Positions 20,496-44,338 of a stretch of 64,000 nt of DNA are shown piece after piece. The stretch is from Caldimonas tepidiphila (lineage in GTDB: Bacteria > Pseudomonadota > Gammaproteobacteria > Burkholderiales > Burkholderiaceae_C): assembly GCF_003569765.1 (NCBI RefSeq), contig NZ_QXMG01000019.1, forward strand, positions 1-64,000, in the 5' to 3' direction. Below the pieces are notes generated by a model, which worked only from the letters and a program-made list of their open reading frames with translations, ran no database searches and had not been told where the DNA came from. Every line of letters begins with the position of its first letter. Position 1 is the stretch's first letter. Made by a program: the position numbers and the translations under genes.

Positions 20496-21458
20496 TCAGC
20501 TGGCAGGCGCGAAGCCGGCGGCGAGCGCCGCGCGCAGGTGCGCGACCAGCTCCTGCACCGCGCGCGGCACCTGCGGGCTCCAGGGCCGCATCGCGTAGAC
20601 GCCCTCGCCGAAGAAGCCGACCGGGCGCCAGTCGGGCAGCAGCTCGCGCAGTCGGCCCGCGCGCAGCGCGGCGGCGGCGCTGAAGTCCGGCAGCAGCGCC
20701 ACGCCGAGGCCGGAGAGCACCGCGTCGCGCAGCACCTCCGAGTTGTTCGCGCGCAGCGGCCCGCCCACCGCCACGCTCACCCGCTCCGGCTCCTCGCCGC
20801 TCGCGCCGCGCTCGAACATCCACTGCGCCGGGCCGCCGCGCAGGTAGGGCAGGCAGTCGTGCGCGGCGAGCTCCGACGGATGCCGCGGCACGCCGCGGCG
20901 GCGCAGGTAGCCGGCCGAGGCCACCAGCAGCGCGCGCGAGCCGCACAGCCGCCACGCCACATGGTTGTCCGGCGGCGCGCTGGTGTGGCGCACCGCGAGG
21001 TCGAACCCCTCCTGCGCCAGGTTCACGAGCCGGTCCGACAGGTCGAGCTCGATGCGGATCTCGGGCCAGCGGCGCAGGAACTCCTCGAGGTGCGGCGCGA
21101 CATGCTGGCGTCCGAGCGCCACCGGCGCGGTGAGCCGCACGAGCCCGCGCGGCCGCCCGGCGAGCTCGCGCACGCCGAGCAGGCCCTGCTCGATCTGCGC
21201 GAAGCTCGCCGCGGTCGAGTCCACCAGCCGCTGGCCGGCGTCGGTGAGCCGCACGCTGCGCGTGGTGCGCTGCACCAGCGGCAGGCCGACCGCGCGCTCG
21301 AGCTCCGCGACGCGCTGGCTCACCGCCGCCTTCGACAGCCCGAGCCGCTGCGCCGCCTTCGTGAAACTGCCCTGCTGCGCGATCACGCCGAGCGCGTGCA
21401 GGTGGGCCCAGAGGGTCTCGGCCCGGCTCGCGGGCGGCGTATCGTGTGGCGTCGTCAT
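20496..21458 (-). CDS. hpdR: LysR-family regulator, likely 3-hydroxypropionate-responsive (HpdR-type)
   Basis: The protein has 320 aa. The N-terminal helix-turn-helix is [21 protein letters not shown] (residues 31-51), and the [12 protein letters not shown] wing and effector domain are typical of the CrgA/AaeR branch. It is divergent from mmsA. An ATTGTTCA-N6-TGAACAAT operator (21465-21486) lies just upstream of its start. The same operator precedes the GMC dehydrogenase at 42.6 kb. In Pseudomonas and Cupriavidus, LysR proteins beside mmsA and a GMC 3-hydroxypropionate dehydrogenase respond to 3-hydroxypropionate; that assignment here is inference from context. Confidence 0.82.
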
Positions 21459-21464
21459 GCCGCG

Positions 21465-21486
21465 ATTGTTCACGCAACTGAACAAT
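21465..21486. promoter_or_regulatory. LysR operator upstream of mmsA
   Basis: ATTGTTCA-CGCAAC-TGAACAAT is an 8-bp perfect inverted repeat with a 6-nt spacer; T-N11-A can be read in it. The same dyad, with a different spacer, occurs at 42477-42498. It lies 18 nt upstream of the mmsA -35 element, the usual place for an activating LysR site. Confidence 0.8.
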
Positions 21487-21504
21487 GTGGTCACGCCCGC
21501 GGGC

Positions 21505-21533
21505 TGTGCAGCGGCCCCGCCCGCGCCTATGCT
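21505..21533 (+). promoter_or_regulatory. Promoter of mmsA
   Basis: TGTGCA (21505-21510), 17-nt spacer, TATGCT (21528-21533). The weak -35 fits an activator-dependent promoter. Both hexamers and both spacings are identical in the promoter of the GMC dehydrogenase gene. Confidence 0.68.
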
Positions 21534-21563
21534 CGATGCAGCAACGCAACAGGAGAGACTGCC

Positions 21564-23084
<1,521 letters not shown>

Positions 23085-42476: not shown

Positions 42477-42498
42477 ATTGTTCACGGCGCTGAACAAT
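42477..42498. promoter_or_regulatory. LysR operator upstream of the GMC dehydrogenase gene
   Basis: ATTGTTCA-CGGCGC-TGAACAAT has the same two 8-bp arms as the operator at 21465-21486, with a different 6-nt spacer. It lies 18 nt upstream of the -35 element, exactly as at mmsA. Confidence 0.8.
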
Positions 42499-42516
42499 GT
42501 GATCGCGACCCCGGCC

Positions 42517-42545
42517 TGTGCAGCGGGCCGGCATGCGCCTATGCT
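42517..42545 (+). promoter_or_regulatory. Promoter of the GMC dehydrogenase gene
   Basis: TGTGCA (42517-42522), 17-nt spacer, TATGCT (42540-42545). These hexamers and spacings are the same as at mmsA, and the upstream GAACAATGTG context is also shared. Confidence 0.68.
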
Positions 42546-42592: not shown

Positions 42593-44338
42593 ATGAGCGA
42601 CGCACCCACCTTCGACTACGTCATCGTCGGCGCCGGCACCGCCGGCTGCCTGCTCGCCAACCGCCTCAGCCGCGACCCCTCGGTGCGGGTGCTGCTGATC
42701 GAGGCCGGCCGCAAGGACGACTACCACTGGGTGCACATCCCGGTCGGCTACCTCTACTGCATCGGCAACCCGCGCACCGACTGGCTCTACAAGACCGAGG
42801 CCGACCCGGGGCTCAACGGCCGGCAGCTGCGCTACCCGCGCGGCAAGGTGCTCGGCGGCTGCTCGAGCATCAACGGCATGATCTACATGCGCGGCCAGTC
42901 GCGCGACTACGACCAGTGGGCGCGGCTCAGCGGCGACGCCGGCTGGGGCTGGTCGCAGTGCCTGCCCTACTTCAGGAAGCACGAGAACCACTGGCGGCTC
43001 GACCCGCAGCAGGCGGCGCAGGCGAGCGAGGAGTTCAAGGCGCTGCACGGCCACGGCGGCGAGTGGCGCGTCGAGAAGCAGCGGCTGCGCTGGGACGTGC
43101 TCGACGCCTTCGCCGCCGCCGCGGTGCAGGCCGGCATCCCGGCCACCGACGACTTCAATCGCGGCACCAACGAGGGCGTCGGCTACTTCGAGGTCAACCA
43201 GAAGGCCGGCTGGCGCTGGAACGCGGCCAAGGCGTTTCTCAGGCCCACCTGCCACGCGCGGCCGAACTTCACGCTGATGACGGGGGCGCAGGTCACGAAG
43301 CTCGTGCTGGAGCGCGACGGCGACGGCGTGCTGCGCGCCGGCGGCGTCGAGCTGATCGACGAGCGCGGCGAGGCGCTGACGGTGCGCGCCGCGCGCGAGG
43401 TCGTGATGGCCGCCGGCGCGATCGGCACGCCGCAGATCCTGCAGCTGTCGGGCATCGGCAGCGGCGCGCTGCTCGCCGACCACGGCATCGTGCCGCAGCA
43501 CGAGCTGCCCGGCGTCGGCGAGAACCTGCAGGACCACCTGCAGATCCGCGCCGTGTTCAAGGTGCAGGGCGTCAAGACACTCAACACGATGGCCAACTCG
43601 CTGTGGGGCAAGGGGATGATCGGGCTCGAGTACCTGCTGCGGCGCAGCGGCCCGATGAGCATGGCGCCCTCGCAGCTCGGGGCCTTCACGCGCTCCTCGC
43701 CCGAGTTCGAGTGGCCCAACGTCGAGTACCACGTGCAGCCGCTGTCGCTCGACGCCTTCGGCGAGCCGCTGCACCGCTTCGACGCCTTCACCGCGAGCGT
43801 GTGCAACCTGAACCCCACGTCGCGCGGCCACGTGCGGTTGAGATCGCCGCGCTGGCAGGACGCGCCGCGCATCTTCGCGAACTACCTCTCGACGCCCGAG
43901 GACCGCAAGGTCGCGGCCGACTCGCTGCGCCTGACGCGGCGCATCGCCGCGCAGCCGGCGCTGAGCGCTTACCGCCCCGAGGAGTTCCGCCCGGGCGTGC
44001 AGTACCAGAGCGACGAGGAGCTGGCGCGGCTCGCCGGCGACATCGCGACGACGATCTTCCACCCGGTCGGCACCTGCCGCATGGGCTCTGCCTCCGACGA
44101 CCAGGCGGTGGTGGACACGCGGCTGCGGGTGCGCGGCGTGCGGGGCCTGCGCGTCGTGGACGCGAGCGTGATGCCGACGATCACCAGCGGCAACACCAAC
44201 TCGCCGACGCTGATGATCGCCGAGCGCGCCGCGGAATGGATCCTGGCCGATGCGGCCCGGCCGCAGCTGCCGCTGTCGGTGGAGGCCGCGTCGCCCGGCG
44301 CCCTCAGGCCCCGGATCGCAGCGTCCGAGTCAGCGTGA
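42593..44338 (+). CDS. hpdH: GMC-family FAD alcohol dehydrogenase, probable 3-hydroxypropionate dehydrogenase
   Basis: This 581-aa glucose-methanol-choline oxidoreductase has the FAD motif VIVGAGTAGCLLANRLS (residues 10-26), PRGKVLGGCSSINGMIYMRG (about 83-102), GAIGTPQILQLSGIG and the catalytic His region FHPVGTCRMG. The C-terminal NTNSPTLMIAERAAEWI helix is conserved. In Pseudomonas and Cupriavidus a GMC enzyme (HpdH) oxidises 3-hydroxypropionate to malonate semialdehyde, which MmsA then converts to acetyl-CoA. The shared operator with mmsA supports that role here. A choline or other alcohol dehydrogenase is the alternative. Confidence 0.8.
   Translation: MSDAPTFDYVIVGAGTAGCLLANRLSRDPSVRVLLIEAGRKDDYHWVHIPVGYLYCIGNPRTDWLYKTEADPGLNGRQLRYPRGKVLGGCSSINGMIYMRGQSRDYDQWARLSGDAGWGWSQCLPYFRKHENHWRLDPQQAAQASEEFKALHGHGGEWRVEKQRLRWDVLDAFAAAAVQAGIPATDDFNRGTNEGVGYFEVNQKAGWRWNAAKAFLRPTCHARPNFTLMTGAQVTKLVLERDGDGVLRAGGVELIDERGEALTVRAAREVVMAAGAIGTPQILQLSGIGSGALLADHGIVPQHELPGVGENLQDHLQIRAVFKVQGVKTLNTMANSLWGKGMIGLEYLLRRSGPMSMAPSQLGAFTRSSPEFEWPNVEYHVQPLSLDAFGEPLHRFDAFTASVCNLNPTSRGHVRLRSPRWQDAPRIFANYLSTPEDRKVAADSLRLTRRIAAQPALSAYRPEEFRPGVQYQSDEELARLAGDIATTIFHPVGTCRMGSASDDQAVVDTRLRVRGVRGLRVVDASVMPTITSGNTNSPTLMIAERAAEWILADAARPQLPLSVEAASPGALRPRIAASESA

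Follow-up and report, generated by a model that had tools for sequence, protein, structure and literature searches.

A LysR-type operator-promoter before mmsA and an unlinked GMC dehydrogenase gene of Caldimonas tepidiphila, probably shared through promoter copying

In Caldimonas tepidiphila, the LysR-type regulator encoded divergently from mmsA probably controls mmsA and also, by way of a recently copied operator-promoter, an unlinked GMC oxidoreductase gene 21 kb away, and the two enzymes would act in series on 3-hydroxypropionate (3-HP). This reading, developed for a stretch of 64,000 nucleotides (the window) and followed in related genomes, draws on the architecture of the two promoters, its conservation, the tight pairing of LysR and operator dyad and the excess similarity of the two promoters, from which we infer binding, activation, the inducer, the substrate of the GMC enzyme and the direction of copying. 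According to the proposed mechanism, the LysR-type activator (20496-21458) would bind an ATTGTTC-N8-GAACAAT dyad abutting the start region of lysR, making autorepression likely, and the same dyad, at about -65 of the divergent mmsA promoter, would serve activation once an inducer is bound. In an ancestor of the strain, the whole operator-promoter would have been copied to a place before the unlinked GMC dehydrogenase gene, whereby one regulator would switch on both; the GMC enzyme would oxidise 3-HP to malonate semialdehyde, and MmsA would convert malonate semialdehyde to acetyl-CoA.

Such a mechanism is ordinary and it is the evolution that is unusual, the promoter of a broad LysR clade having probably been copied to an unlinked partner gene. 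Scattered pathway genes are common in bacteria, but the recruitment of a stray gene to a regulon is rarely caught under way. In this case more than 100 distinct mmsA promoters of relatives have kept the operator, and the GMC copy is found in only some members of one genus with the source promoter visible in the same genome.

Two promoters and three genes in the window

The features concerned, in window positions, are as follows.

20496 to 21458, minus strand: gene for a LysR-type regulator, 320 aa from the ATG at 21458 (start codon uncertain), with Pfam HTH_1 and LysR_substrate
21465 to 21486, no strand: operator dyad ATTGTTCA-N6-TGAACAAT in the lysR-mmsA interval, 6 nt upstream of the start codon read for lysR
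21505 to 21510, plus strand: mmsA promoter -35, TGTGCA, footprint positions 41-46, where the majority bases of relatives are TTGGCA
21528 to 21533, plus strand: mmsA promoter -10, TATGCT, mostly TAGACT in relatives, 41 nt after the dyad
21564 to 23084, plus strand: mmsA, CoA-acylating (methyl)malonate-semialdehyde dehydrogenase, 506 aa, by TIGR01722
42477 to 42498, no strand: operator dyad, GMC copy, from the window and genome scans
42517 to 42522, plus strand: GMC promoter -35, TGTGCA, in a place equal to that in the mmsA promoter
42540 to 42545, plus strand: GMC promoter -10, TATGCT, the hexamer common to the window's mmsA promoter
42593 to 44338, plus strand: GMC oxidoreductase gene, 581 aa, probable 3-HP dehydrogenase (DddA/HpdH-like), by Pfam and homologues

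An earlier note on this DNA had claimed the order dyad, 18 nt, TGTGCA, 17 nt, TATGCT before both genes, and direct reading of the letters bore this out to the base at 21465-21533 and 42477-42545. On the mmsA side the 18-nt gap occupies 21487-21504 and the 17-nt spacer 21511-21527, and on the GMC side they occupy 42499-42516 and 42523-42539 respectively. The GTG-TC-CG-like flanks that it had described are also present, as GTG-N-TC-N-CG directly after each dyad. The dyad centre lies at about -65 as counted from an assumed start 7 nt past the -10.

A chance origin of the two dyads was ruled out by shuffles, a whole-genome scan and the expectation from base composition. With up to 3 mismatches allowed, two matches were found in the window against a mean of 0.01 in 100 shuffles, and the search for more copies in the 5.47 Mb draft genome (178 contigs), which the earlier note had proposed, returned two exact places (mmsA and GMC), no third place below 3 mismatches and six others with 3 mismatches each. 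The chance expectation of an exact dyad in 5.47 Mb is about 5e-6, calculated from base composition with the window's 72% GC.

The protein encoded at 20496-21458 is a LysR-type transcriptional regulator, both Pfam domains being above their cut-offs (HTH_1: 1.1e-20, 73.8 bits, cut-off 26.6; LysR_substrate: 4e-34, 118.3 bits, cut-off 28). A match to it was found in 84 of 200 sampled family genomes (E <= 1e-75) and in all nine genomes of the genus (E <= 1e-50). MmsA passes the curated cut-off of NCBIfam TIGR01722 (718.4 bits against 448.5), and its gene is the sole copy in the window genome at E <= 1e-120. The GMC protein carries GMC_oxred_N (1.3e-45, 156.3 bits, cut-off 23) and GMC_oxred_C (6.3e-38, 130.9 bits, cut-off 24.6). 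As choline dehydrogenase BetA it stays under the NCBIfam cut-off (TIGR01810, 486.6 bits against 732.1), the PADLOC scan assigned it no family, and one distant relative (44%) is present elsewhere in the window genome.

The operator before mmsA and its regulator in relatives

For the comparison of mmsA upstream regions, 151 distinct regions with enough sequence were used, one row being kept per distinct 200-nt promoter. With the window's LysR type adjacent, the dyad (up to 4 mismatches) was present in 114 of 116 regions, 113 of these having 0 to 3 mismatches, whereas it was present in three of the 35 regions without that LysR type overall, namely in none of 13 adjoining another LysR type and in three of 22 with neither type adjacent. 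Since related species are not independent, the Fisher P values given in this text are to be read as descriptive. This pairing supports the view that the dyad belongs with the LysR divergent from mmsA. The two misses among the 116 are Cupriavidus plasmids with a 56% LysR beside mmsA and no dyad, and the three dyads standing without an adjacent LysR gene belong to genomes that hold LysR elsewhere: about 2.3 kb off in the same stretch as the mmsA dyad (G111), with the dyad 1.6 kb beyond the end of the LysR gene (G100), or 362 kb from the sole mmsA, which yet retains dyad and TAGACT (G007). This last genome, in which the LysR gene also retains its own dyad opposite an unrelated gene, is a natural case of a regulator separated from its target.

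A footprint was built from 89 promoters bearing the dyad at up to 4 mismatches, and it describes dyad-bearing promoters, not the frequency of the dyad. It has a fixed geometry of dyad, 18 nt, -35, 17 nt and -10, with conservation of both half-sites, of TCA just after, of the first T of the -35 hexamer and of CCTAGACT. Of the 114 dyad-bearing mmsA promoters, 105 have 41 nt between the dyad and the -10 and the other nine have 42, and the same spacing was observed on plasmids of Pseudomonas aeruginosa, Caballeronia and Variovorax. Judged by its sequence, the dyad region is an operator-promoter of the LysR kind with a fixed geometry, and the dyad also borders the beginning of lysR. For regulon prediction and the construction of acid sensors in Burkholderiales, it is useful to have the operator of a LysR clade so well defined.

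The exact dyad core was found in 65 of the 80 LysR genomes scanned (of 91 intended), and twice in 12 of the 65. Among the places listed, the second exact place is the GMC copy in the window genome (G000) and in G005, and a ATTGTTCC variant in the other ten; a wider regulon under the same dyad was thereby ruled out in these 80 genomes.

A sister dyad, ATTGTTCC-N6-GGAACAAT, is present in at least 11 of the 80 scanned genomes, for example at 1501-1522 of each of the loci L340, L341 and L353. A paralogous LysR gene, matching the window's LysR at 34-36%, adjoins this dyad in L340 and L341, and in L340 the gene on its other side is flavodoxin/FMN-reductase-like. Position 8 of the half-site may be what separates the sites of these two LysR regulators.

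Rarity and origin of the operator before the GMC gene

Before GMC genes, the dyad was found in three of the 150 genomes examined (0, 1 and 1 mismatches; next best, 5 mismatches). All three, the window genome, G005 and G006, are among the nine genus genomes examined, the other six being without it. Where GMC is not directly behind mmsA, LysR genomes had the dyad before GMC in 3 of 57 cases and lacked it in 54; another 18 LysR genomes have GMC right after mmsA. Since six of nine genus members and 54 of 57 genomes are without the GMC dyad, shared control is not a general need. By position, 22 of the 84 sampled family genomes with LysR have GMC within 6 kb of it, 21 of them in divergent order. The survey took one GMC locus per genome and omits 12 LysR genomes with GMC absent or not listed, as well as five of those 22, their stretch not being whole. 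At 38 of the 150 GMC loci the upstream sequence was shorter than 2 kb, so that adjacent LysR genes are undercounted.

In eight of nine genus genomes GMC lies 19-47 kb from LysR, the ninth having them on different contigs; the separation is therefore old, and the idea that an insertion recently broke up an mmsA-GMC operon of this strain was rejected. Consequently, the view of the window as a split version of a known regulon was half right: the separation of GMC and LysR is old and it is the operator before GMC that is new. The spacing looked for in related genomes holds at mmsA, at 41 nt in the 105 of 114 promoters given above, but fails at GMC outside the genus. Within the genus, the GMC promoters of G005 and G006 carry TAGACT 51 nt past the dyad, a distance ten nt longer than before mmsA in these genomes. 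In G006, whose GMC dyad has 1 mismatch, LysR is encoded in two pieces in different frames (L225 and L226), by frameshift or assembly error.

The two 69-nt promoters of the window are identical at 57 of 69 positions, while the best of 88 other mmsA promoters reached 49/69 with the window's mmsA promoter and 47/69 with its GMC promoter. Among the 114 dyad-bearing mmsA promoters, the window's is alone in having TATGCT at +41, and the window's GMC promoter has TATGCT too. None of the 12 differences between the two falls on the 24 positions conserved at >=80% (P = 0.003); at the 70% threshold one falls on 29 positions (P = 0.008), and at 90% none on 19 (P = 0.014). This excess identity, together with differences that spare conserved positions, suggests that the mmsA promoter was fairly recently copied to a place before GMC and that the copy was kept functional. 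The GMC gene is most likely a member of the regulon of the divergent LysR. Copying would have run from mmsA to GMC, a direction of which similarity alone is no proof.

That the GMC promoter is no copy, its likeness being due to convergence or being kept because the same LysR reads positions beyond the dyad, is considered unlikely. The footprint does take in positions outside the dyad (TCA, -35, -10), and operators can arise before GMC in another form, because G005 and G006 have the 51-nt version with TAGACT rather than one at 41 nt. However, the excess of identity extends to non-conserved positions: of the 35 spacer positions that lie in neither dyad nor hexamers, the two promoters agree at 26, a number that none of 100000 composition shuffles attained. 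For the mmsA promoters of the eight other genus members, agreement over the 35 is 16-20 with the mmsA promoter of the window and 10-18 with the GMC promoter of the window. Poorer still are the chances of the second dyad being a duplication leftover with no regulation of GMC. Its presence in just three of 150 GMC upstream regions would fit such a leftover, but it is correctly spaced from a promoter-like -35 and -10 as well as from the start of GMC, its 12 drifted positions avoid all 24 conserved ones, and a GMC dyad is also found in G005 and G006. Ownership of the dyad by a regulator other than the divergent LysR is the most improbable of these alternatives; the paralogous LysR has its near-identical dyad beside its own gene, but that dyad differs at position 8 of both half-sites and lies beside a different target, and the dyad of the window goes with its own LysR type in the pairing described above (114/116 against 3/35).

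Recent copying from mmsA thus being preferred for the window, the GMC dyad of G005 and G006 suggests a second, independent gain, because of its 51-nt form and because the GMC proteins of these two genomes branch apart from those of the other genus members in the tree, a suggestion that depends on three genomes and on a tree with weak deeper forks. In the trees, the window's MmsA groups with G203, G092, G140 and G212 (support 95/92), its LysR is grouped with 15 rows that lie outside the genus (90/87) and its GMC sits with six genus members (89/70); support is uneven, and the G006 LysR is represented by one of its two frame-split pieces. A broader proposal, which appears plausible although we would lean slightly against it, is that a second LysR clade, non-orthologous to the one beside the GMC genes of Halomonas and Cupriavidus pampae, runs 3-HP breakdown across Comamonadaceae-like bacteria from a strictly spaced ATTGTTC-N8-GAACAAT promoter, and that an unlinked GMC gene was recruited at least twice in Caldimonas-group genomes. 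The window would then represent a copied promoter with a distance of 41, and G005 and G006 a form with a distance of 51, about one helical turn more. If true, this would be regulon growth by promoter copying caught early.

As a separate observation, the lysR-mmsA pair (window 20496-23084) may come from another lineage by transfer, MmsA and LysR grouping with other genera and GMC with its own genus.

The proposed 3-HP pathway and known regulators

GMC homologues are paired with mmsA or dddC elsewhere, and the pair of the window is linked only via the shared promoter. A GMC homologue stands directly behind mmsA in 43 of the 150 genomes examined, preceded by the window's LysR type in 17, by another LysR type in 9 and by neither in the stretch examined in 17, and the order LysR / mmsA - GMC is present in relatives. 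In Halomonas sp. PA16-9, LysR is followed by adjacent mmsA (79%) and GMC (66% over 357 aa, the match being in two pieces), and a P. aeruginosa plasmid has the window's LysR type (60%) with an exact dyad, then mmsA - acuR - GMC with acuI nearby. The earlier proposal of an MmsA and GMC pair as in known 3-HP pathways agrees with both of these clusters. In Rhizobium, a GMC homologue (69%) lies beside a long CoA-transferase that resembles DddD.

On alphaproteobacterial plasmids (L315 4983-9209, L316 5001-9205, L317 2676-6902), a GMC homologue (67-70%) is followed by a CoA-transferase of about 835 aa with two matched stretches, and a divergent LysR gene precedes GMC, an arrangement resembling a DMSP-cleavage cluster.

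The mmsA - GMC order of Halomonas sp. PA16-9 is like that of the published 3-HP genes dddC and dddA (PMC7940609, PMC13104084). In Halomonas, 3-HP induces DddA 119-fold and the MMSDH next to it 116-fold, and growth on 3-HP requires dddA (PMC7940609). By analogy, the GMC enzyme of the window is probably a 3-HP dehydrogenase and a 3-HP role of the regulon is likely. Among the papers listed by a search of the open-access literature for 3-HP in Caldimonas, none was on this topic to judge by its title.

A regulon for valine or beta-alanine breakdown, in which the inducer would be 3-hydroxyisobutyrate or a related acid and GMC would act on another alcohol, is a doubtful alternative, if the strongest of those weighed. 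MmsA is single-copy in 9/9 genus genomes and would also serve valine breakdown, if that is run, so 3-hydroxyisobutyrate or another acid could be the inducer; MmsR of Pseudomonas denitrificans responds to both 3-HP and 3-hydroxyisobutyrate (PMC6441110), and in 102 of 150 genomes GMC is not directly preceded by mmsA and no LysR was recognised in the stretch examined, a count in which neighbours can be missed where the stretch holds under 2 kb upstream (38/150). Against it stand the mmsA-GMC adjacency in 43 of 150 genomes and in Halomonas, acuR and acuI beside the Pseudomonas plasmid cluster, and the 69% GMC homologue beside the long CoA-transferase in Rhizobium.

Among the closest known systems is HpdR of Pseudomonas putida KT2440 (PMC5431877), likewise a LysR-type activator, whose dyad precedes the -35 in the promoter PhpdH of a 3-HP dehydrogenase gene. 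Its operator, however, is GCCCCTGTGC-n6-GCACAGCGGC as opposed to ATTGTTCA-N6-TGAACAAT in the window, its gene adjoins the target whereas the LysR gene of the window is 21 kb off GMC, and 3-HP is shown to be the inducer there and merely proposed for the window. This HpdR operator (CRE1) has no place in the window genome with up to 2 mismatches, and the HpdR core motif is absent from all 89 promoters of the window's LysR type, which rules it out as the window operator, as well as from all 36 upstream regions of the other LysR type. Among 369 class genomes, CRE1 was matched at 2 mismatches in 15, and none of these 15 loci had a gene homologous to the three of the window or to the other LysR, so that the search yielded no HpdR reference.

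The window's LysR shares about 26% identity with the LysR encoded next to mmsA-GMC in Halomonas and with the one beside the GMC gene of C. pampae, whereas the LysR proteins beside the Halomonas, C. pampae and Rhizobium GMC genes are 47-52% identical to one another. From these identities, the LysR beside GMC in Halomonas and C. pampae is of another clade than the window's, although that clade is itself not proven to be HpdR. The label HpdR-type given in the earlier note is accordingly unsupported, CRE1 being absent and identity to that clade only about 26%.

Other published systems resemble the window in part. MmsR of P. denitrificans is a LysR divergent from mmsA with a dyad operator upstream of PmmsA, centred at -79 with a second dyad at -28, and activation occurs with 3-HP and 3-hydroxyisobutyrate; its operator AATGTGCAA-N15-TTGCACATC is unlike the window dyad, and mmsA is there in an operon with hbdH-4 and not with GMC (PMC6441110), hpdH being a separate operon with its own LysR (PMC4617489). 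Cupriavidus necator also has a divergent LysR gene (hpdR / mmsA-hpdH), and its (methyl)malonate-semialdehyde dehydrogenase and hpdH are co-induced by 3-HP, 156- and 154-fold, but mmsA-hpdH is one operon there as against two separate promoters in the window (PMC5431877, PMC6572756). In Halomonas sp. D47, the LysR-type regulator AcuZ of the dddCA-acuNK genes similarly governs dddC and dddA, with 3-HP/acrylate as effector and action at two promoters, dddC and dddT; the operator sequences are unlike the window dyad (PMC13104084). The LysR beside mmsA-GMC of Halomonas sp. PA16-9, presumably AcuZ from its place, is 26.5% identical to the window's over 181 aa. No description of the window operator was found in the open-access literature, and papers outside it may exist.

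Both LysR clades occur before mmsA-GMC in Comamonadaceae, and from these sequences it looks as if one regulator was replaced there by another at the same job.
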